In this document: positions 4,196-42,459 of the stretch, piece after piece
How the letters are laid out: every line of letters begins with the position of its first letter
Position numbering within the stretch: the stretch's first letter is position 1
Source: an archaeon
GTDB lineage: Archaea; Aenigmatarchaeota; Aenigmatarchaeia; QMZP01; JAFGSV01
Assembly (NCBI GenBank): GCA_028279705.1
Contig: JANQNF010000016.1
Coordinates: 64,001-128,000 of the forward strand
Direction of reading: 5' to 3'
Length of the DNA: 64,000 bases
The notes under the pieces: generated by a model
Told to the model about the DNA's origin: nothing
The model's database searches: none
Seen by the model: the letters and a program-made list of their open reading frames with translations, nothing else
Translations under genes and position numbers: made by a program

Positions 4196-4726
4196 ATGGC
4201 AGACCAAGGACTACCACCCGCAGGCCGATTTGTTGGCGATGCACTAGTAAACCTGTTCCAAGATAGAATCAAGCAATTGATTGCTGACCTAGGAAGAGAA
4301 GTTACCTACGTGCTAACTCCGCAGCAGGTCGATTGCCCTAACTGTGGTTTTGACTTTGTTAATAACAGGTCTAACAATGTTCATACGCCAAATGCTTCTG
4401 GCGCATCTTTTAACAAGTCCTTTACTACAGGGCAAAGGTGCCCGGTATGTCAGGGTAGAGGCAAGCTAGAATTCTCGCGCTCTGTCACACACAAATCACT
4501 AGTAGGTTTTCAACCTGCACCTGAAGAGTTCAACTACACCGAATATGGTTTGACGCCAGACCAAGTATTGAGAACTAAGAATGCACTAGCTGTTCTTCCA
4601 GATATTGAAGTAGCTCAGTACGCCATCATTGATGGCTTTGAGTGTGAGAAAATTACTATTCCAAGAAAAACAGGATTGCGAGATTTAGCTTTTCTTGTTA
4701 CATATTGGAAGAGAAGGAATACATAA
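4196..4726 (+). CDS. Zinc-ribbon neck or head-tail connector candidate
   Basis: The 176-residue protein carries two C-x-x-C pairs, near residues 46/49 (C-P-N-C-G) and 82/85 (C-P-V-C-Q-G-R-G). Together they form a probable zinc ribbon. It is not SG-rich. Its place between the fibre-like genes and the tail tube gene is where phages keep small head-completion and neck proteins, so a connector or stopper role is inferred from context. I do not recognise the family. A GGTGA ribosome-binding site precedes ATG 4196, and the stop overlaps the next ATG (TAATG). Confidence 0.6.
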   Translation: MADQGLPPAGRFVGDALVNLFQDRIKQLIADLGREVTYVLTPQQVDCPNCGFDFVNNRSNNVHTPNASGASFNKSFTTGQRCPVCQGRGKLEFSRSVTHKSLVGFQPAPEEFNYTEYGLTPDQVLRTKNALAVLPDIEVAQYAIIDGFECEKITIPRKTGLRDLAFLVTYWKRRNT

Positions 4727-4902
4727 TGGATGAAAAGAGAAAGCACGATGAGGGCGGCTTCATCTTTGAAGAAAATGATATTGGTACTGACCAAGGTAGA
4801 GAACTGCCCGAAGACGGCAAGATTCTAGACAACTTTGATACTATTGATTTTGGTCTACCTCCTAGCTATAGAGGTAAGCAGAAATACGAACCTGATGCCT
4901 AA
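4726..4902 (+). CDS. Small acidic protein, unknown
   Basis: This 58-residue protein starts at ATG 4726, which overlaps the upstream stop. An in-frame TTG 21 bases earlier looks spurious. It is rich in Asp and Glu, with an E-E-N-D-I-G-T-D-Q-G-R-E-L-P-E-D stretch, and has no hydrophobic core. It looks like a disordered or scaffold-like adaptor. Its 3' end overlaps the start of the next gene by 8 bases, so the two are probably translated together. No family recognised. Confidence 0.55.
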   Translation: MDEKRKHDEGGFIFEENDIGTDQGRELPEDGKILDNFDTIDFGLPPSYRGKQKYEPDA

Positions 4903-5632
4903 TCTTCGATTCAAGATTCGTAATGCCAAGAAGCTAGAAGCACGCATTGCCGTGGCGGCGCGCAATTATGCCAACGCTGCATTCAATGCTATTGAGAAAG
5001 AGCTAGAGAAAACAGGCGCACGAATCATTAGGCGAATCGAAAACAGCGAAGAATATAGGCAGCTAGTCAGTGACCCTATTCTTCGTGGCAAGCTAGGATT
5101 AGCGGCTCCGGGTCGTAAGTCTGGCGGGGATACTGATGCACCAGACTTAATCAGAGCCCTAGGAAACTTTAAGGTCACCAGAAACAGAGCCTTTAACACT
5201 AGGCGTTTCAGGTTGGAAATGCCCAGCCTGCAAGACTTAGAGCAGCAGTTAACACATAGACTGACTACTTTTGGTCGTGGAGCATTTCTACCGGGACCTA
5301 TCCAAAGTTGGTTCAGGTGGTGGGAGTTTGGAGATAGAGGAGAGATTGATACACTTACTGTATTCCAGAGAAGTTCTGCTGCGGCAGCAGGAAGACTCAG
5401 GACATCTCGTGTATCATTAAATAGGTTAATTGCCGAAAGAAGCCGTTCTGGTAGTGCTATTCAGATAGCTAGCGAGCCTGCAAACGATGCAAGTAGTATC
5501 ACTGGCTCTAACTTAATCGGCAGGACCTATGCGAATTTCGGTAGGATTTTACCGGCTCAGTTGGGGAAGGTATTAAGGCAGTTTACTAGAAACAACAAGC
5601 CTAACAGCTTCTTTGCTAGGGTGGTTCGATAA
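4895..5632 (+). CDS. Tail-completion or neck protein candidate
   Basis: The start is taken as ATG 4895 (M-P-N-L-R-F-K-I-R), which overlaps the upstream stop. This gives 245 residues, and the longer upstream frame is out of phase with the real neighbour. The N-terminus is a basic, helical K-L-E-A-R-I-A-V-A-A-R-N-Y segment followed by a long amphipathic helix. This resembles the HK97-gp10-like tail-completion proteins found between connector and tail tube genes. That likeness and the gene order are the only support for the function. It is not SG-rich. Its stop overlaps the next ATG. Confidence 0.5.
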   Translation: MPNLRFKIRNAKKLEARIAVAARNYANAAFNAIEKELEKTGARIIRRIENSEEYRQLVSDPILRGKLGLAAPGRKSGGDTDAPDLIRALGNFKVTRNRAFNTRRFRLEMPSLQDLEQQLTHRLTTFGRGAFLPGPIQSWFRWWEFGDRGEIDTLTVFQRSSAAAAGRLRTSRVSLNRLIAERSRSGSAIQIASEPANDASSITGSNLIGRTYANFGRILPAQLGKVLRQFTRNNKPNSFFARVVR

Positions 5633-6573
5633 TGGCATTTGGACAGAGAAAGCGTGGATTTAGAAATCGCGTCTATCATAATCTGAAGATGTTCCTAGAT
5701 GATTTCTTCATTAGTAGGGGGTTCTTCGATACGGTAGCATCTGGCGAAACAACATACGAAGGCATCAATCAGTCACAGCTATTGCCTGTTCAGAACGACC
5801 CGCTGTATCCAGTTGACTCTGGAACCACCGTCCATGTGTGGCAGGGTTACAGAAGGAACTGGGTAAGTGAATCGGGAACGCAACAAGTTCACCCGAATAT
5901 GTCCGACCCAATTCTAGTTAGCGGTGTATATATTAATGGTGTTTTCCACGAACCCACACCATTTAACTCGGGAGGTAGTAGTGGGCTTGCAGTAGACAGA
6001 TTAAACGGTAGAGTTATCGTAGAGTCGGGTTTGCCAGCCAGCTACACCGTGGAAGTGGAGCACTCGTTTAAGGAAGTCTGGGTGGATACTATCTCACGAG
6101 ATATGATTACCAACCAGATTACCGCTATTGACAATACCAAGCGTATCGTCATCAACAATGCGCCATCGGGGGAAATCGGACAACTCCCGATGGTGCTAAT
6201 GGAAATGAAGAACAATCCAAGCCCAGAAGGATTACAACTTGGTGGCGGCATTATTTTCCGTCCTGTAGTCGATTTGCATGTTGTGACCAATAGCAGATAC
6301 GACAAAGATGAGATTATTGATGCTCTCACACTCAGAGCTTTTAACACTATGCAGATGGTGGATTTGGACGCAGCGCCGCAGGAACAGTTTACTTTCTACG
6401 GTAACTATGGTTCAGGATACCAAACATATAGTGAGTTAAAGGCAAATTACTTAGACCGTAATGCTTTCGTGCAGAGCGTTTCATTGGTGGCCAACGATGA
6501 TATTGCTCAAGAAGGCTATTACACAGCACTAGTGCGAATGGAATTCAGAATTGATATTCCAGAAGAAGTTTAA
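5632..6573 (+). CDS. Virion protein, tail terminator candidate, Ser-Gly rich
   Basis: The 313-residue protein starts M-A-F-G-Q-R-K-R-G-F with a basic N-terminus. The rest is predicted mostly beta strand, with N-G-V-F-H-E-P and S-G-V-Y-I-N-G hairpins. Ser-Gly occurs about nine times. This separates it from the three non-SG neck genes before it and groups it with the exposed tail proteins. Its place just before the tail tube block suits a tail terminator or neck-surface protein. No family motif is recognised, so the call rests on position. It begins in a TAATG overlap and is followed by a good AAGGAG site for the next gene. Confidence 0.5.
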   Translation: MAFGQRKRGFRNRVYHNLKMFLDDFFISRGFFDTVASGETTYEGINQSQLLPVQNDPLYPVDSGTTVHVWQGYRRNWVSESGTQQVHPNMSDPILVSGVYINGVFHEPTPFNSGGSSGLAVDRLNGRVIVESGLPASYTVEVEHSFKEVWVDTISRDMITNQITAIDNTKRIVINNAPSGEIGQLPMVLMEMKNNPSPEGLQLGGGIIFRPVVDLHVVTNSRYDKDEIIDALTLRAFNTMQMVDLDAAPQEQFTFYGNYGSGYQTYSELKANYLDRNAFVQSVSLVANDDIAQEGYYTALVRMEFRIDIPEEV

Positions 6574-6584
6574 GGAGATTAGAC

Positions 6585-7487
6585 ATGTCTATGAGTCACG
6601 AGATGGTGAAGGCATATGTCAAGAACCAGCTTGCTAAGGCAGTATCAGGTGGTATCGTTAAGGGTACTACTGAACTTGCTAACGGCCACACTCATAAGTT
6701 TGCCGTCCTATACGACGAGCACAACAAGATGTTTGTTGGCGAGACAAGCTTCGATGGCAGAGGCCCTCACACACATTACATTATGATGGGTTTTCAGGAT
6801 GTTGTTGAAACACACCTGAACAATGACCCACAGCCTAGAGATGAAGACGCAATTAATGCGGTTGTTCCCATGGCCAACCTACCAGAGAACATGCGCCGTA
6901 TTATTGACTTTTACAATCTAAAGGCAATCCGTATGGAGACACACCCTGCGCACCCAGACAACCACACTCACGTTTTGGTGGTTCGTTTTGCTGGTCACGA
7001 CGTTGACCATATGGGTCGTAAGGTAGAAGCCAAGCTTGACTTTGAAAAGGGCGAGCAGTATGGCGAGCAGATGGAAAAGGCTAAGAAGAACCGTGCTGAA
7101 GCTGAAGCAGAGCTTTCTGCTGTTCTTACTAAGGCTATCCGCCCAAGTGTCGTAGAACAGGAAGGTGCTAAGAAGCCTACTGGTCCAGATACAGCGCAGA
7201 TGCCAGCCGAAGAAGTTGCCAAGCCAGCCGATACTTCTACTATGCCTACTGACACACCCGATGTGGAAATTGAAGCAGAAGTAGAGCTTAAGGATGAAGC
7301 TGGTGACGTTAGCTCGCCACAGGCTTCGCGTGATATTGATGGGGCTGTAGATGGCACCCCTAAGACCGTAGCCGAGAAGATGGTCGAAGATATCCGCCGT
7401 AAGGCTATGAGTGCCGAAGAAGAGCTTATGGCTCGTCTAAAAGAGCACATGAAGGCTCGTAAAGAAGCCAAAACTAAGTACGAGTAA
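6585..7487 (+). CDS. His-Thr-His repeat virion-associated protein, unknown
   Basis: The 300-residue protein has a strong AAGGAG ribosome-binding site. The N-terminal half holds three H-T-H tripeptides, near residues 33 (G-H-T-H-K-F), 60 (P-H-T-H-Y-I) and 125 (N-H-T-H-V-L), plus further histidines. These could bind metal ions. The C-terminal half from about residue 165 is charged, Ala/Glu/Pro-rich and ends in a lysine-rich helix, so it is probably disordered or coiled coil. It has little Ser-Gly content. A structural or assembly role is likely from its place before the major tail gene. A scaffold or chaperone is another option. Confidence 0.5.
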   Translation: MSMSHEMVKAYVKNQLAKAVSGGIVKGTTELANGHTHKFAVLYDEHNKMFVGETSFDGRGPHTHYIMMGFQDVVETHLNNDPQPRDEDAINAVVPMANLPENMRRIIDFYNLKAIRMETHPAHPDNHTHVLVVRFAGHDVDHMGRKVEAKLDFEKGEQYGEQMEKAKKNRAEAEAELSAVLTKAIRPSVVEQEGAKKPTGPDTAQMPAEEVAKPADTSTMPTDTPDVEIEAEVELKDEAGDVSSPQASRDIDGAVDGTPKTVAEKMVEDIRRKAMSAEEELMARLKEHMKARKEAKTKYE

Positions 7488-7598
7488 TTTTTATAAATAT
7501 AACTAAATGGTGTATAATTATTGAGATTTTATCTTTACCCAGAGAGACGAGTCTCAGCGTGGACCATAATTGCCCTATATATTAGGGGGGAAGTCTAA
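7488..7598 (+). promoter_or_regulatory. Promoter-like elements and RBS hairpin upstream of major tail gene
   Basis: This 111-base gap holds TATAAATA at 7492-7499, TATAAT at 7513-7518, a GAGAC/GTCTC inverted repeat near 7540-7555, and a CCCTA-TATAT-TAGGG hairpin at 7573-7587. The hairpin's 3' arm merges into the G-run and GAAG that form the ribosome-binding site of the gene at 7599. A separate promoter suits a gene whose product is needed in many copies. The hairpin could limit ribosome access. No clear -35 box was found, and whether the phage sigma factor reads TATAAATA is unknown. Confidence 0.45.
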
Positions 7599-8891
7599 AT
7601 GGTTAACAACAGAACTTTCTATGCTGTCAAGCAGCTCAGCATCAAGAACAACGACTACGCTAACAACAGTGTACTACTTGACGCAATTCAGGTTAACGCT
7701 TCTGGTCAGCACGCTTCAGGTGTTACCCAAATCGACCTAAACGCTAGCGGTTCCCTAGATGCACTACCGTCTATCGGTCAGTTCATCACCCCGTCTGGCG
7801 AGTTGATTACCTACACAAGCACATCAGGTGACTCACTTGGTGGTGGTCTTCTAGGTGTAACACGTGGTGCTACCAACACACAGGCAACTGTGATTGAAAG
7901 CGGCGACCTACTCAAGTATGCAGGTTGGGAAGTTGTCCACGGTGTTCAGAGTGTTGGCGTAACAACCAACTTCAGTCTAGAGCAGGTTTTCGAATTTGGT
8001 CAGATTGAGATTTACGAGAACATCGAGGCGCTACCAGAGCTAGAAGTAACCGTTGAGCGTGTACTTGATGGCACAAAGCCACTATGGTTCATGGTAACTG
8101 ACGATACTAAGACCACTTTGAACGAAGCGGTTGCTAACTATAAGGCCGACGTCGGTCTTAACATCTATGCAGACTCACAGAACCGTGCGTCTGGTACCAT
8201 CCGTCAGTTCATGTTTATGTCTGGTATGTTCATCTCGAACGCTACCTACACCTTCCCTGTTGATGGAAACTTCACTGAGTCTATCACCATGGTCGGTAAC
8301 GACAAGACATGGACACAGAGTGCAAACGCCCCAAGCGGCAACTGGACTCAAGAGCGTGTTGGTAATGGTGGTGTAGAGGATGCAACTGTCATCGGCTCAG
8401 GTGTTCAGCGTCGTGAAAACCTATCTCTAACTGCTTCTGAAGTTCCAACAGACCTACCGGGCGTGCCCGGCGCAGGCGTTGGTAACCTTGGTTCAGGTAT
8501 TAACGAGCACCTCCAGACCATTACTCTCTCTGTAGATATTGGTCGTGAGGACTTGTTCGAGCTAGGTGCTAAGAAGCCATTCTTCAAGTCTGTAACCTTC
8601 CCAGTGGAGGTTTCAGCAACTTTCGAAGTAGTAACCGCTGAAGGTGACCTCGTTGAAGCTCTAAGCGACAACGACACTAACCTCGTCAACCAGAACATTC
8701 TAATTAAGACTGACTCTGGTCTCACCGTTAACCTTGGTGCCGAGAACAAGCTTCTCAGCATTGATTTCGGTGGTGGCGATGCTGGTGGTGGTAACGACAA
8801 CGTTACTTACACCTACCAGACATTCAACGTGTTCAGTGTGTCACACGATAACGCTGACTACTCACGCAGAGTGGCCGCAACTGGTGCGTAA
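7599..8891 (+). CDS. Major tail (tube) protein
   Basis: The 430-residue protein is mainly beta strand and sits where tail tube genes lie: after the neck genes, before assembly genes and the tape measure, with its own promoter region and a strong terminator behind it. The single-gene transcription unit suits a highly expressed structural protein. It contains an N-terminal S-I-G-Q-F-I-T-P-S-G-E-L-I-T-Y segment, seen in phage tail proteins for coordinate and slope values, and V-T-R-G-A-T-N-T. Ser-Gly occurs about 12 times. It is longer than simple tube proteins, which leaves room for an extra surface domain. The start has a G-rich site partly held in a hairpin. Confidence 0.7.
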   Translation: MVNNRTFYAVKQLSIKNNDYANNSVLLDAIQVNASGQHASGVTQIDLNASGSLDALPSIGQFITPSGELITYTSTSGDSLGGGLLGVTRGATNTQATVIESGDLLKYAGWEVVHGVQSVGVTTNFSLEQVFEFGQIEIYENIEALPELEVTVERVLDGTKPLWFMVTDDTKTTLNEAVANYKADVGLNIYADSQNRASGTIRQFMFMSGMFISNATYTFPVDGNFTESITMVGNDKTWTQSANAPSGNWTQERVGNGGVEDATVIGSGVQRRENLSLTASEVPTDLPGVPGAGVGNLGSGINEHLQTITLSVDIGREDLFELGAKKPFFKSVTFPVEVSATFEVVTAEGDLVEALSDNDTNLVNQNILIKTDSGLTVNLGAENKLLSIDFGGGDAGGGNDNVTYTYQTFNVFSVSHDNADYSRRVAATGA

Positions 8892-36402: not shown

Positions 36403-37398
36403 ATGCAACCACGTTCAGATTATCTATCGGCATCGCGCATTAAGACGCTGCGTTCTTGCCCGATGAAGTTCTACCTTCAGTATGTATCGCCAGATAAGCC
36501 GGTTATGCCGGACAACTGGGGAGCAGCTAATGGTACACTACTTCACGAAGTATTTGAAGATTACGCATCGGGTGAGCGCCGTGACTGGCGAGTTAATCTG
36601 ATGGAGAAGTTCCGTCGTTACATGGCGGATAATAACATTCTCGATTCGGTGTTCAAGTTCACTAAGGGTGTTAAGACTTCTGTAGAAGACAACATCAAAG
36701 CCACTAAGCGTAGTTGTCACGCCTGTCCGTTCGCACAGATTATGGCAGATGGTCAGACCGTACACTGTAATGCGGTTGGCAAGACCACTACAGAGTTTGT
36801 TGGCACTCCACGCAAGATGCTTGAAGATACAATCAAACTAGCTGAAGCTATCTTTGATGATGACTTCAATCCTATTGATGAAATGAAAGTCATTGGTATT
36901 GAGCAGAAGTTCGATATCACATTCCCTAATGGTGTACGCACATTTGGATTTATTGACTTAGTATCAGAGATTAGTGAAGACACTATCGAAATTCGAGACT
37001 ATAAGAGCGCCAAGCGTGTTCCAAGTGACAAAGAGATTACAGAAGGCTGGGTGGCTAAAGATATTCAGATGCAGATGTATTTCGCCGTTACGAAATATAT
37101 GTGCGACAATAATATTCCACCCTTTAAAGATACCTACAAAAATATCTTTGTTACAATCCATTTTCTACGCAAGTGTCCTATTACAATGACATATAGTGAT
37201 GGAGATTATCGTAGGATTTTGGATAAAATAGCTAAAGCCAAGCAGCACATTCTAGAAGTCGAAAAGCCTCTTCCTAAAGGAATGTGGGGTAGAGATAAAT
37301 TCTGGATTTGCAACTACTGTAACGTAGAAGCGTGTGAAAAGGCTTGCTTAGAAATTCATGGTAAAACTAGAGAGGAACTAGCTAATGAGCATTCGTAA
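36403..37398 (+). CDS. RecB/Cas4-like PD-(D/E)XK exonuclease with Fe-S cysteines
   Basis: The 331-residue protein has the family's S-A-S-R-I-K-T-L-R-S-C-P start, G-T-L-L-H-E-V-F-E helix (motif I His), G-F-I-D-L-V-S-E (catalytic Asp near 185) and I-E-I-R-D-Y-K-S-A-K (D-Y-K core near 199-202). One early Cys (C19) and three or four at the C-terminus (C-N-Y-C-N-V-E-A-C-E-K-A-C) suggest a 4Fe-4S cluster as in Cas4 and AddB. A middle C-H-A-C-P-F pair is extra. It probably resects DNA ends for RecA-driven recombination. No CRISPR genes are near. Confidence 0.9.
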   Translation: MQPRSDYLSASRIKTLRSCPMKFYLQYVSPDKPVMPDNWGAANGTLLHEVFEDYASGERRDWRVNLMEKFRRYMADNNILDSVFKFTKGVKTSVEDNIKATKRSCHACPFAQIMADGQTVHCNAVGKTTTEFVGTPRKMLEDTIKLAEAIFDDDFNPIDEMKVIGIEQKFDITFPNGVRTFGFIDLVSEISEDTIEIRDYKSAKRVPSDKEITEGWVAKDIQMQMYFAVTKYMCDNNIPPFKDTYKNIFVTIHFLRKCPITMTYSDGDYRRILDKIAKAKQHILEVEKPLPKGMWGRDKFWICNYCNVEACEKACLEIHGKTREELANEHS

Positions 37399-37639
37399 AG
37401 AGCCACTCAGTGAGTTGCTAGAAAAGTACGTACTCATTATGATTGAACTACAAAGGCTAAACGCTTTACTTGTTCATTACTCAGAAAGCGGCGTCAGTGC
37501 TAAGGTGGCACAGGCAGCCGACTCCATCAAGAGATTGGAACTATCTAAAAAGACAATCGCGCTAGAATTAGACCGCAGGATGCCAAATGCAGACAACCCA
37601 CCTACAGGAACAGAAGACGGCTCTAGTCCATCTTCATAA
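37385..37639 (+). CDS. Small protein, unknown
   Basis: The 84-residue protein starts in an overlap with the nuclease gene (14 bases). It is predicted as a helical hairpin (L-L-E-K-Y-V-L-I-M-I-E-L-Q-R-L, then I-K-R-L-E-L-S-K-K-T-I-A-L-E-L) with a disordered Pro/Ser tail. Its 3' end overlaps the polymerase gene by 53 bases. The close packing suggests a replication partner, but no family is recognised. Confidence 0.45.
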   Translation: MSIRKEPLSELLEKYVLIMIELQRLNALLVHYSESGVSAKVAQAADSIKRLELSKKTIALELDRRMPNADNPPTGTEDGSSPSS

Positions 37640-39353
37640 TCATTCAGACGCTTCTCTTCTAGACGGGCTCTCAAGAGTCCCCGATATTGTTGAGCGAGCG
37701 AAAGAGTTAGGCCACGAAGCTATTGCTATTACCGACCACGGTAATGTATTCAATGCATGGTCTTTCTATAAAGAAGCCAAGAAGAAAGGCATCAAGCCGA
37801 TTCTTGGTGTTGAAGCATATATCTGTAACGATATCAAAGAGAAGAATCGCAAACAGAACCACATCACCTTGTTGGCTAAGAGCTATCAGGGTCTTCGTAC
37901 TATCAACAAGCTGTTGACAATTGCCAACACCGAAGGGTTCTACTACTATCCTCGTATTGACCCTAACATCCTACTAGAAGTTAATGAAGATATCATCGTG
38001 CTGAGCGGGTGCTTGGGCGGTCTTTGGTCACAAGCTGTACTTCGTGGAGACATGCAGTACGCTTACGACCTAGCTAAGAAGTTCCGCGAGAAGTTTGGCG
38101 ATGACTTCTATATCGAGATTCAGGATTCAGGAATCGAAGACCAGAAGATTACCAAGCCGCGTCTTCGTGAGATAGCCGCAGATTTGGGCATTAAGACCGT
38201 ATGTTCTAACGATGCACATTATTCTAGACCAGAAGACGCTCTTACGCATGAGATTATTCTAACCAATGGTCAGCGTAGAAAGCTGTCTGACCCTGTTCGT
38301 GGTTATGATGATTTTAGCGGCGATGATTCATTGCCTACTCGCTGGCGTTTCGAAACTCCTGACTACTATCTCAAGTCACGCCAAGAGCTAGCTTCTGTAT
38401 ATACAGGAGATGAACTAGACAACACTGTTGAAGTTGCAGAAAAATGCAACGTAGAGTTTCCTAAGAAGACTTCGCACGTTCCAACTTTTGAGACACCAGA
38501 CGGAAGCACACCGTTCGACTATCTTCGTAAGATGTGTTGGGAGGGCTGGAAGAAGCTTGGATTAGACGATAAGGTGAATGTAGATGAATATAAAGAACGT
38601 ATGCGCAAAGAGCTTGCGGATATTGAGGATGGTGATTTGGCTAGCTATTTTCTTATTGTGTGGGATGTTTGCCGATACGCTGATATTCACGGGATTGGAC
38701 GCGGCGATGGTCGAGGCTCGGCCGTTGGCAGTCTTGTTAGCTATACTCTTTTCATTCATTCTTGTGACCCAATCACGTACAGTCTCATCTGGGAGAGGTT
38801 TTACAACAAAGCACGTAAAGGTTCAATGCCCGACATTGACCTCGACATCGAAACTGAAAGACGTGAAGAGGTTATTGAATACGTTAGAAGACGCTATGGT
38901 GAGAATAAGGTCTTCCAATTCATTACGTACGACACGTACAAGCTTAAAAACGCTATCAAAGACATTGGAAGAGTCCTTGGAATCCCTTTGGACGAATGCC
39001 AATTCATCTCGAATTGCGTTCCCTTCAAATACAAAGATTTTGACGACGCACTCGCTCAATCAGAAGATTTACGAGATTACGCAAAACAATACCCTGAGCT
39101 ATTCAGACATGTTAAGCGTGTTGAAAACGCTAAAAAAGCAAAGTCGTCTCACGCATCAGCAGTTCTTATCTGCGATGAAGATGTTATCACAAGTGGCTGC
39201 ATCCCTCTCAGTTACGATGCCAAGAACAAGAAGGTAGTAACCGGATGGGATATGTATACTCTAGATGACCACGGTTATCTAAAACTAGATGTTCTAGGAC
39301 TTAAGACAGTTAGTGTTCTAGATGAAGTAGAGAGAATTGTAAATGCAAATTAA
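37587..39353 (+). CDS. dnaE: DNA polymerase III alpha, N-terminal fragment (PHP and palm)
   Basis: The 588-residue protein matches the first half of bacterial DnaE. Residues ~12-250 are a PHP domain with H-L-H-N-H-S-D, T-D-H-G-N and S-N-D-A-H-Y, so its metal ligands look intact, unlike in E. coli DnaE. The palm has M-P-D-I-D-L-D-I near 414-421, giving two catalytic aspartates (~416, 418), and K-L-D-V-L-G-L with the third near 568. It ends 20 residues later, at the palm/fingers border. It cannot be a complete polymerase without the 40313 gene. The start has AGGA 7 bases upstream. No intein N-terminus follows. Confidence 0.95.
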   Translation: MQTTHLQEQKTALVHLHNHSDASLLDGLSRVPDIVERAKELGHEAIAITDHGNVFNAWSFYKEAKKKGIKPILGVEAYICNDIKEKNRKQNHITLLAKSYQGLRTINKLLTIANTEGFYYYPRIDPNILLEVNEDIIVLSGCLGGLWSQAVLRGDMQYAYDLAKKFREKFGDDFYIEIQDSGIEDQKITKPRLREIAADLGIKTVCSNDAHYSRPEDALTHEIILTNGQRRKLSDPVRGYDDFSGDDSLPTRWRFETPDYYLKSRQELASVYTGDELDNTVEVAEKCNVEFPKKTSHVPTFETPDGSTPFDYLRKMCWEGWKKLGLDDKVNVDEYKERMRKELADIEDGDLASYFLIVWDVCRYADIHGIGRGDGRGSAVGSLVSYTLFIHSCDPITYSLIWERFYNKARKGSMPDIDLDIETERREEVIEYVRRRYGENKVFQFITYDTYKLKNAIKDIGRVLGIPLDECQFISNCVPFKYKDFDDALAQSEDLRDYAKQYPELFRHVKRVENAKKAKSSHASAVLICDEDVITSGCIPLSYDAKNKKVVTGWDMYTLDDHGYLKLDVLGLKTVSVLDEVERIVNAN

Positions 39354-39552
39354 AAATATCATTAGAGATAGAATCACTCTTCACGTACAGAACTACTTTG
39401 AAGAAAATCATCCTGATTTTGATGACACAAATCTATCCGACGAAGAAGTGCATATGATTGCTAAAGATTTAGGACCGAAGTTGAAAGATAAAATTATGGA
39501 TGATTTGATGGAGCTACTAGGTGGTAATGAGGTGCATCCAAATGGAACTTAA
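39343..39552 (+). CDS. Small acidic protein between polymerase halves
   Basis: The 69-residue protein starts inside the end of the polymerase N-fragment gene, with an 11-base overlap. It is helical and acidic (E-E-N-H-P-D-F-D-D-T-N-L-S-D-E-E-V-H). The K-D-K-I-M-D-D-L-M-E-L-L-G-G segment near the end could pack in a coiled coil. Tight coupling with dnaE suggests it is made with the polymerase and may hold the two halves together, but that is a guess. No family recognised. Confidence 0.5.
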   Translation: MQIKNIIRDRITLHVQNYFEENHPDFDDTNLSDEEVHMIAKDLGPKLKDKIMDDLMELLGGNEVHPNGT

Positions 39553-39811
39553 ACCTAACGAACCTGAAAAGAAAGAGATTGGTATTAAGGTTCTTCGAGG
39601 GGAAGAAGAAATCCCCGTTGATGAGCTAAAGGTTATTCTCGACTTTGACGGAACAGAAGCGGAAGTGGAACTTAAAAACGCAGTAATTCGTAGTATGGTT
39701 CTAGCACAAGAGAATATCCTATTGAAGAATGCGTTGGCTCAAGCTAAGGCCATTATTACAGGTAAGGCACCACAGGCTAAGCCACAGAGGTTCTACGAAG
39801 GTGAAGAATAA
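39542..39811 (+). CDS. Small protein between polymerase halves
   Basis: I chose ATG 39542, which has GAGGTG at good spacing, over the in-frame GTG 21 bases upstream. The 89-residue product has an acidic N-terminus, two beta strands (E-I-G-I-K-V-L-R-G, V-D-E-L-K-V-I-L-D-F-D-G) and a C-terminal helix (A-Q-E-N-I-L-L-K-N-A-L-A-Q-A-K) that could be a coiled coil. It overlaps the previous gene by 11 bases. Unknown family. A polymerase accessory role is possible from context. Confidence 0.5.
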   Translation: MELKPNEPEKKEIGIKVLRGEEEIPVDELKVILDFDGTEAEVELKNAVIRSMVLAQENILLKNALAQAKAIITGKAPQAKPQRFYEGEE

Positions 39812-39812
39812 A

Positions 39813-40301
39813 GTGGCACGCGGCGGACCAATCAAGCGAAAGAAGTTTCTGTCTGATTTAAGAGACGGAAAGAAAATGGAAGAGTATGTTGCTTCCATCT
39901 ACAAAGAGAACTTCTTCCCGACTTGCGACTACATTTCCTATAACATTGGGAAAGAGTATGACATTAGCTTTTCATTTCCGCGTAAAGAAAGCATTCACGT
40001 AGAAGTGAAATACGACAAGATGGCAAATAAGACCGGCAATCTCTGTTTTGAGATGTTTGACCATAATCATGAGCCATCTGGAATCTTTGCGACCGAAGCA
40101 CACCTAATGGTCTTTGTTCTAAATAAAGAATTGATGTTCGAGTTCAAAGTTGAAGAGCTAAGACGCTTTGTGCAGCATCATGTAACTACAGGTAGGTACA
40201 GAGTATTAAAAGGTGGTGACGGCAACGCATTTGAAATGATGTTAGTGCCAATCACCGAGATTATGAAAGAAGATTTTTGTACAAGAATCGACATTACCTG
40301 A
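39813..40301 (+). CDS. PD-(D/E)XK endonuclease-like protein inserted between polymerase halves
   Basis: The start is GTG 39813, after an AAGGTG site. GTG 39801 is an alternative. The ~162-residue protein has a basic start (G-P-I-K-R-K-K) and a nuclease core: an E-Y-V-A-S-I-Y-K-E-N helix, K-E-Y-D-I-S-F (catalytic Asp near 50) and I-H-V-E-V-K-Y-D (E-x-K near 60). A long beta tail follows. This resembles phage resolvase-like or Hjc-like nucleases, and free-standing homing nucleases of this fold also exist. Its place in the polymerase break is notable. The stop lies directly before TATAAT and the ATG of the second half. Confidence 0.7.
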   Translation: MARGGPIKRKKFLSDLRDGKKMEEYVASIYKENFFPTCDYISYNIGKEYDISFSFPRKESIHVEVKYDKMANKTGNLCFEMFDHNHEPSGIFATEAHLMVFVLNKELMFEFKVEELRRFVQHHVTTGRYRVLKGGDGNAFEMMLVPITEIMKEDFCTRIDIT

Positions 40302-40307
40302 TATAAT
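40302..40307 (+). promoter_or_regulatory. Extended -10 promoter for polymerase C-terminal fragment
   Basis: TGATATAAT is a consensus extended -10 element, with TTGTAC 19 bases upstream as a weak -35. Only 5 bases separate TATAAT from ATG 40313, and no ribosome-binding site is seen, so transcription would start at or beside the start codon and give a leaderless message. Confidence 0.5.
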
Positions 40308-40312
40308 AGACT

Positions 40313-42004
40313 ATGCTAGATTTCGACACAATTCCACTGGACGACAAAAGCACCTACAACCTAATGAGTATGGGACTCACCAAAGGTATCTTTCAACTGG
40401 AAGAACACCTAGGCGAGCGTTACTCTCAAGTTGTAAAGCCCCAGAATATTGAAGATGTTGCCGACATTGTTTCAATCATCCGTCCGGGCTGTAAAGAAGC
40501 TTTTCATGTAGACGGCGAGACTTCAATGCTTGACGCCTATTGTAAGATTCGCAATGGGCAGATGGAAGAAGCTTATCTTCATGATGACCTAAAACCCATT
40601 CTGGGTAAAACACACAGCGTTCTTATCTATCAGGAGCAGATTATCGAAATCTGTCGTGACATGGCGGGTATGTCTCTAGAAGACGGAGACATGGTACGCA
40701 AAGCGATGGGTAAGAAACTTCCGTCTGAAATGAAGAAGTGGCAGGATGTTTTTGTTAAAGGTTGCATAGAGCAGGGTTATGAAGAAGAACTCGGCTTGAA
40801 GATGTGGGACTGGATTGAAAAAGCCGCAGGCTATCTATTCAATAAGTCGCACGCGGTGGCTTACGCTAAGATTGCATATAAGACCGCCTATGCTAAAACC
40901 AACCATCCAACTGCATTCTATTCAGCGATGCTGAAGTTTGCTGACAAGAAGACAGATACCTATGAAGAAATGCTTGAGTTAATCAATGACGCTAAGCTTT
41001 TCGGCATTAGAGTGATTCCACCGGTAATTAAAGAGGCCAACCCTGACTTTCACATTCTAAACAAGAGCACTATCGCTTTTGGTATTGAGTACCTAAAGGG
41101 TGTTGGGCATTCTTCTATGGCAGCAATTGAGCGCCTGCGTGGCGTTTCAAGCTGGACAGACTTCCTAATTATGGTGGATAGATACAAAGTCGACAAGACT
41201 TCTTGTGAAGCACTTATTAAGTCTGGCGTTCTAGATGAGCTTAATTTACCTAGAACATTCATGCTTGCCGAGTACGAGCTATTTCGCGCATTAACTCGCA
41301 ACGAGCAGGCAGTAGTCCTATCTTTGATTGGCCGAAAGTTACACCCACAGATTCTAATTGATATCGATAAATCTGATTTCGAACAGAAGCGTACAGTCAC
41401 CAAATATGTCAAGTTGCACAAGACTGGCGTCTTTGATATTTGTGGGCGCTACGGCCCTGTCAGAAGTATTCCTTTGCCTAGAAACGACATTAACTTCAAA
41501 GAAGAGACTTTCGACCTAGAACACGCCATCAGGCATTTAGTAAGTTGCGAGATTCCCACATCTAGGCGCAGACAGAAGCTTATGCAGCTTCTACTCGAAT
41601 ACACAGATAAAGAACCGTTCGGCATCAATAAGGGTCTTCATCAGGCGTGGGAAAAGTTCTACTTTGGCATTCCACTCACAGTTCAGGATAAGGGCCTAGT
41701 CGTAACTAGTGATGTGACACCCTGCATCGAAGTCATCAATATGGCCCCAGATTCCAACGTGACTATTGCTGGAATTATCGAGAGAGTAAACTATGCCAAA
41801 GTTAAGCGCGGCGAGTCTAAAGGTAAAACAATGGCTTTCCTAGATATTGCTGATGGAAGCTACATGCTAAAGGGTGTTTTGGTCTTCTCGAAAGCTTTTG
41901 AGAAGTACGGCGAGAATATCCAAAAGGGTATGGCGGTCACCATCCGTGGTAGAAAAATGGAAGATAGCAACTCAATTATGGCATATTCTGTGGAAAGATT
42001 GTAG
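40313..42004 (+). CDS. DNA polymerase III alpha, C-terminal fragment (fingers, HhH, OB)
   Basis: The 563-residue protein continues DnaE exactly where the first fragment stops: I-P-L-D-D-K-S-T-Y-N-L-M, then G-I-F-Q-L-E and V-S-I-I-R-P-G. The fingers follow (Y-Q-E-Q-I-I-E-I, R-K-A-M-G-K-K, then L-F-N-K-S-H-A-V-A-Y), then a G-V-G-H helix-hairpin-helix and a final OB fold (V-T-I-A-G-I-I-E-R-V). The F-N-K-S-H site, where cyanobacterial DnaE has a split intein, is uninterrupted. The tau-binding C-terminal domain is absent. It holds no catalytic aspartate triad, so it must join the N-fragment to act. No Shine-Dalgarno site is seen. Confidence 0.95.
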   Translation: MLDFDTIPLDDKSTYNLMSMGLTKGIFQLEEHLGERYSQVVKPQNIEDVADIVSIIRPGCKEAFHVDGETSMLDAYCKIRNGQMEEAYLHDDLKPILGKTHSVLIYQEQIIEICRDMAGMSLEDGDMVRKAMGKKLPSEMKKWQDVFVKGCIEQGYEEELGLKMWDWIEKAAGYLFNKSHAVAYAKIAYKTAYAKTNHPTAFYSAMLKFADKKTDTYEEMLELINDAKLFGIRVIPPVIKEANPDFHILNKSTIAFGIEYLKGVGHSSMAAIERLRGVSSWTDFLIMVDRYKVDKTSCEALIKSGVLDELNLPRTFMLAEYELFRALTRNEQAVVLSLIGRKLHPQILIDIDKSDFEQKRTVTKYVKLHKTGVFDICGRYGPVRSIPLPRNDINFKEETFDLEHAIRHLVSCEIPTSRRRQKLMQLLLEYTDKEPFGINKGLHQAWEKFYFGIPLTVQDKGLVVTSDVTPCIEVINMAPDSNVTIAGIIERVNYAKVKRGESKGKTMAFLDIADGSYMLKGVLVFSKAFEKYGENIQKGMAVTIRGRKMEDSNSIMAYSVERL

Positions 42005-42075: not shown

Positions 42076-42459
42076 ATGAATTTCAACAGTTGCACACTTG
42101 TTGGTCGTATGGTTCGTGACCCTGAAATCAGGGAAGTTGGCGGAACTAACGTTGTAATGTTTACTGTAGCTTCAAACCGAAGCTTCAAGAAGAAAGATGG
42201 CGAAAAGGCGGAAAAGACCCTGTTCATGGACTGTGAGCTATGGGGACCAGCCGCAAGTATCATCAATGACCGTGGCGTAAAGGGTACCACAATCCTAGTC
42301 AGCGGACCCATTGAGCAGGATACATTCCAGACGCAGGATGGTAGCAAGCGTACTCGCTACAAGCTGCGTGTAGACTTTTTCCAGTTCGGTCAGGGCTCAG
42401 TAGTCCCAGCCGAGACTGGTAATGCCGCAGATGCGGGTGGCGATGACATTCCATTCTAA
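42076..42459 (+). CDS. ssb: Single-stranded DNA-binding protein
   Basis: The 127-residue protein has the OB-fold start M-N-F-N-S-C-T-L-V-G-R-M-V-R-D-P-E-I-R, V-V-M-F-T-V-A-S-N-R-S, L-F-M-D-C-E-L-W-G and K-R-T-R-Y-K-L-R-V-D. It ends in the acidic tip D-D-I-P-F, which in bacterial SSBs docks partner proteins. It is shorter than E. coli SSB because the linker is reduced. It coats single-stranded DNA at the phage fork. An AGGAG site is present, the palindrome at 42026 may regulate it, and its 3' end overlaps the sigma factor gene by 17 bases. Confidence 0.95.
   Translation: MNFNSCTLVGRMVRDPEIREVGGTNVVMFTVASNRSFKKKDGEKAEKTLFMDCELWGPAASIINDRGVKGTTILVSGPIEQDTFQTQDGSKRTRYKLRVDFFQFGQGSVVPAETGNAADAGGDDIPF

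Follow-up and report, generated by a model that had tools for sequence, protein, structure and literature searches.

The stretch of DNA considered here (64,000 nucleotides, positions 64,001 to 128,000 of the forward strand of contig JANQNF010000016.1, hereafter the window) encodes the alpha subunit of DNA polymerase III, DnaE, in two separate genes with no intein at the broken ends. The split is real, and it very probably yields an obligate two-chain C-family (DnaE-type) replicase that assembles non-covalently, that is, an intein-less genes-in-pieces enzyme. A preliminary description of the window had proposed such a divided polymerase; the finding is correct and broader than first stated. It concerns a genes-in-pieces phage enzyme, in this case a C-family replicase whose break holds a nuclease gene; neither this gene nor the recurrence of the split in many phages had been noticed. 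Replicative polymerases are usually viewed as single catalytic chains, and a large set of C-family replicases now seems to consist of two chains without protein splicing.

The two dnaE genes and the break between them

The first gene, dnaE-N (37587..39353, forward strand), encodes the N-terminal half of the polymerase (PHP, palm, and thumb; 588 residues), and the second, dnaE-C (40313..42004, forward strand), has its own ATG and encodes the C-terminal half (fingers, HhH, and OB fold; 563 residues). The two are separate genes, 960 bp apart. In Pfam, dnaE-N matches PHP and DNA_pol3_alpha, and dnaE-C matches DNA_pol3_finger, HHH_6, and OB; read over both halves, the domain order is that of DnaE (PHP, polymerase core, fingers, HhH, OB), and the coordinates given previously were correct. 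All three catalytic aspartates, D416, D418, and D568, lie in the N half, which stops exactly 20 residues past D568, where about 20 had been estimated. Aligned to E. coli alpha (2hnh), dnaE-N extends up to residue 573 and dnaE-C begins at residue 584, so that only a variable loop of about 10 residues is absent, and the second fragment does start at the next conserved segment, on the border of palm and fingers. No intein is present at the broken ends: dnaE-N stops, and dnaE-C starts directly at homologous DnaE sequence. The motif FNKSH, which we take to adjoin the split site of cyanobacterial DnaE, is unbroken at residues 176–180 of dnaE-C, in agreement with the earlier claim that the break lies elsewhere. 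An Rfam search of the dnaE region and the gap for introns gave no match up to E 1. A perfect TATAAT at 40302–40308, just 5′ of the dnaE-C start, could be the promoter of a near-leaderless message, or chance.

In the proposed enzyme, the N chain would supply the PHP domain and the palm and thumb with the three catalytic aspartates, and the C chain would supply the fingers, HhH, and OB domains. Neither chain has both the catalytic residues and the fingers, so a functional polymerase should need the two together, as previously argued, and full activity from one fragment alone is unlikely. The loop between palm and fingers where the break falls varies in both length and sequence; each half could therefore fold, and the halves would be held together by the interface already present inside an ordinary DnaE. 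The C half is indeed predicted to fold on its own: modeled alone, dnaE-C reaches a predicted local distance difference test score (pLDDT) of 89 and a predicted template modeling score of 0.82, and its best matches, over the whole length, are DnaE structures. Several features of a genes-in-pieces enzyme are found here, namely conserved regions that are all kept over the two halves, a break in a loop, and one or more other genes in the gap. The split may have arisen as other genes came to sit in dnaE at this hinge, a RecU-like PD-(D/E)XK nuclease gene in this case and a DnaQ-like exonuclease gene elsewhere, and would then have been inherited and maintained by purifying selection. What we infer in this model is that the halves assemble physically and are active as a polymerase, what the PHP domain does, and how the split arose.

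Purifying selection on both halves is strong. The proportion of nonsynonymous differences is low (pN 0.18–0.24), and that of synonymous differences is near saturation (pS 0.74–0.95), for dnaE-N, dnaE-C, and the gap nuclease alike, with similar values for the neighboring genes. The correlation between N-half and C-half distances is 0.91 for split loci and 0.86 for unsplit loci, and the three catalytic aspartates are retained in every sequence scored.

The contig of the window (C74, 175,863 bp) has no match to the PolA, PolB, DnaQ-type exonuclease, or beta-clamp families; the dnaE halves are its only recognized replicative DNA polymerase and the only DnaE match in the bin. It encodes sigma-70, DnaB, DnaG, RecA, single-strand binding protein, and class II ribonucleotide reductase, and the archaeal markers of the same bin (RNA polymerase N and B-family polymerases) are on other contigs. 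An archaeal host is unlikely in view of this gene content, and the contig most likely belongs to a bacterial phage and was misbinned. Conserved neighbors of the split gene are a PDDEXK_1 (RecB/Cas4-like) nuclease gene upstream (36403..37398, forward strand) and the gene of the single-strand binding protein downstream (42076..42459, forward strand).

Relatives with the same split and its history

Two independent contigs from the IMG/VR database, L001 and L002 (67–74% identity), are broken at the same residue as the window, and the split is therefore not due to chance or error. Their N halves end in VERLVNG or VEQLVNG followed by the stop codon, and their C halves start with MLDF at the same residue, the ATG overlapping the preceding stop codon. 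Both carry the gap nuclease, and the small open reading frames (ORFs) in the gap differ. In L001, a GIY-YIG-like endonuclease gene (L001:4350-4931) lies directly upstream of dnaE-N; it is not at that place in the window. Three more distant loci, L110, L114, and L117 (about 33–40% identity), are split at that residue or at most a few residues away, and their gaps contain genes of a dUTPase, a homolog of the nuclease, a zinc-ribbon protein, and a thymidine kinase.

A wider survey covered the 80 best C-half matches in viral contigs of IMG/VR, some of which are near duplicates. The N and C halves are in separate ORFs at the hinge of the window in 70 of these 80. A gene for a DEDDh exonuclease of about 226 residues occupies the gap in nearly all split loci (68 of 70, within L007–L083; e.g., L009:6316-6996); its product matches RNase_T (Exonuclease family) and the PHROG “DNA polymerase exonuclease subunit,” and the DEDDh motifs are conserved. 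Gaps range from 639 to 2104 nt and hold different protein-coding genes, including HNH genes in some other gaps. No split locus that was read has room for an N-intein, as the N half ends as soon as the last homologous helix is complete. Many split phages, among them L007, L011, L012, L017, L025, L032, and L061, have an additional conserved segment at the start of the C half; it contains Y/F-x-CGC-x-F, which may be a metal-binding knuckle, and is absent from the window. Other interruptions affect the N half: in L019 and L062, a second one (about 0.4 and 1.2 kb) is located near residue 370, just before GRGSAVGS, and in L158, L161, and L164 an in-frame insertion of about 115 residues without stops is located at residues 410–413, just before the catalytic PDIDLD. 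No Rfam intron was found in these five loci.

Among bacterial dnaE loci with both halves scorable, all 79 are unsplit, and searching with the N half gave 76 viral loci that could be scored, of which 73 are unsplit; the split is thus confined to particular phage lineages. No match came from a nucleotide search of the phage collection or from the N half as a single-sequence query against viral contigs, where alignments were required; of two scans of genome contigs, the first gave no match and the second only ordinary unsplit bacterial dnaE. Such split pairs are already annotated in database records, and a literature search, with subscription journals outside its reach, returned no paper describing a non-intein split DnaE.

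The history of the split was analyzed in a tree of 45 taxa with ultrafast bootstrap and approximately unbiased (AU) tests of constrained origins. A search of related phages for an unsplit gene, proposed in the preliminary description, yielded L008, L020, L111, and L113, which together form the sister group of the window clade (ultrafast bootstrap 97), with the split L110, L114, and L117 next to them. The unsplit L057 nests inside the clade with the DnaQ-like exonuclease in the gap (ultrafast bootstrap 96), and its exonuclease gene (4381–5094) is directly upstream of the fused dnaE (5093–8521); this position in the tree and in the locus suggests a re-fusion. Monophyly of the clade with the nuclease in the gap is not rejected (AU p 0.20–0.26), and neither is a grouping of the nuclease-gap and DnaQ-gap clades together with L057 (p 0.06–0.09). 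A single ancient split for all is rejected once Rossellomorea phage phiT1 (PV767480.1) is added (p 1.5e-15), and on this tree the same hinge has therefore been broken at least twice.

Proofreading seems to be organized differently in the two clades. The nine metal ligands of the PHP domain, which many but not all DnaE1 proteins have, are intact in dnaE-N (H17, H19, D26, H51, E76, H92, C142, D209, and H211), and the site reads HHDHEHCDH in the window clade. With this site intact and a search of the contig for DnaQ homologs empty, the PHP domain probably does the proofreading in this lineage. Among the 68 DnaQ-gap loci, 37 have a fully degenerate PHP site and 27 an intact one (including one truncated locus); L050 is intermediate, and three loci could not be scored. 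That the DnaQ-like protein proofreads there is a reasonable inference. Related trends in PHP versus DnaQ proofreading are known in bacteria (PMC3919608), and with about 37 of 68 PHP sites fully degenerate, the long-discussed handover from PHP to DnaQ becomes testable in phages. The split lineages and their unsplit sisters offer, moreover, a comparative system for how essential enzymes survive fracture, and the hinge is a natural split point for engineered split DnaE.

The gap nuclease and rival explanations

Three forward ORFs are present in the 960-bp gap. The first (39343..39552, forward strand; 69 residues) overlaps the end of dnaE-N; none of the gap ORFs compared is related to it. The second (39542..39811, forward strand) encodes 89 residues from the ATG at 39542, or 96 from a GTG at 39521, and has at most a weak match to a gap ORF of L001 (E 0.04). 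The third, which is conserved, encodes a PD-(D/E)XK nuclease-like protein of 162 residues from the GTG at 39813 (39813..40301, forward strand). Against Pfam, nothing exceeded the cut-off and no RecU family was matched; the only match is phrog_13596, whose function is not annotated. The protein shows a D…ExK pattern (D50, E64-x-K66), in which E64-x-K66 is conserved in every aligned homolog, and the upstream aspartate varies in register and is absent from the shorter pelagiphage proteins. Foldseek gave no significant match with the AlphaFold2 model, which is of moderate quality (pLDDT 71). In VIA-align, the nearest solved structures are RecU Holliday-junction resolvases (Z 7.1–7.7), followed by BglI, PvuII, SfiI, and Hjc, which share the PD-(D/E)XK fold; the homing enzyme I-Ssp6803I, of the same fold, is also similar (Z 4.9). 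All Z scores are under 8, which is supportive of a RecU-like PD-(D/E)XK fold but not proof of it. As the genes of its homologs in Pelagibacter phages are flanked by those for DNA polymerase A and an exonuclease and lie outside any broken gene, the protein looks like a general phage replication or recombination nuclease.

Two other roles have been considered for this nuclease. It might be a homing endonuclease, which would have disrupted an intact dnaE and would spread by cleaving copies that are still unsplit. We regard this possible origin as rather less likely than not. The presence of its gene in six lineages, the likeness to I-Ssp6803I, the HNH genes of some other gaps, and the unsplit sister lineages L008, L020, L111, and L113 would all fit such an origin, and homing has been proposed for mobE in the nrdA gene of Aeromonas phage Aeh1. 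The better structural agreement with RecU resolvases argues against it, however, as do the Pelagibacter phage homologs outside any broken gene and the gaps of L110, L114, and L117, where the nuclease gene stands with those of dUTPase and thymidine kinase as in a replication gene cluster. A doubtful proposal makes the nuclease a stoichiometric subunit of a three-part replicase, in which dnaE-N, nuclease, and dnaE-C are produced in that order from one operon and assemble together. If true, the split would serve to bring a nuclease to the hinge between palm and fingers, the PD-(D/E)XK protein here and the DnaQ-like exonuclease in the other clade.

For the two-chain replicase itself, the tree holds a point that counts against it: with unsplit L008, L020, L111, and L113 beside the window clade, either re-fusion or more than one split appears to be required. 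That only one half works is improbable; in such a case dnaE-N might be a PHP exonuclease, for example, or dnaE-C a DNA-binding factor, and a host or other phage polymerase would copy the genome. The 176-kb contig does contain many unnamed genes, but no other polymerase family was found on it, the D-D-D of the N half and the finger residues of the C half are conserved over deep divergence, and the two halves are equally constrained. Split inteins and introns are known in phage replication genes, such as the intein-bearing split PolB of phage MIJ3 (PMC6892783), and the halves could in principle be joined into a single chain by an undescribed intron, a split intein, or ribosome bypassing. This is highly improbable in view of the empty Rfam search of the gap, the lack of space for an N-intein, gaps of such different length and coding content, and the N stop and C start ATG shared by the close relatives; a spliced RNA, which the preliminary description had named as a possible refutation, is thereby refuted as far as sequence allows. 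A sequencing or assembly error, also named there, or a decayed pseudogene might be suspected in one metagenomic contig from an otherwise archaeal bin, but five relatives on independent contigs (L001, L002, L110, L114, and L117) share the break and both halves are under purifying selection, which makes this explanation negligible.

Comparison with known split enzymes

Several deposited phages also have a broken dnaE. The genes gp20 and gp18 of phiT1, both annotated as DNA polymerase III alpha, are broken at the same hinge, but only a 49-residue ORF separates them, and phiT1 is distant from the window in the tree. The break in Corynebacterium phage P1201 (gp59/gp58) is at this hinge too, with overlapping ORFs; a sequencing frameshift is possible, and the case is ambiguous. 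Other breaks are in the fingers, around an HNH gene, in Bacillus phage KLEB27-3 (gp166/165/164), and near the PHP domain, judging by gene lengths, in Microbacterium phage Haunter (gp56/57). In Bacillus phage G (gp329/gp339; JN638751 239245-250008), the break lies elsewhere and a homing endonuclease gene and eight other genes are in between; gp329 ends before the catalytic motif and gp339 starts after it, the middle segment being absent from both. The unannotated dnaE of Bacillus phage vB_BpsS-140 (L269:2022-5638) has its PHP and polymerase parts in different overlapping frames, which is either a frameshift or a real split. In the other deposited phages checked, dnaE is whole.

Cyanobacterial split DnaE is the same protein family produced from two genes, but there the halves carry a split intein and become ligated (PMC3919608), unlike those of the window, which have no intein and an intact FNKSH site. 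The nrdA/mobE arrangement of Aeh1 also concerns an essential phage enzyme in two chains with a nuclease gene inserted between them, and the two-chain NrdA is functional (PMC2988022); in that case, the enzyme is a ribonucleotide reductase and the inserted gene encodes a recognized HNH homing endonuclease. The T4-type genes 43A and 43B of Aeromonas phages 25 and 44RR likewise encode a phage replicative polymerase in two genes without an intein, and gp43A and gp43B of Aeromonas phage 25 co-purify and have polymerase activity (PMC2988022). Those polymerases belong to the B family and are separated by a seg homing endonuclease gene or untranslated sequence; here, a C-family DnaE is divided around a gene for a RecU-like nuclease or for a DnaQ-like exonuclease, and in a much wider set of phages.

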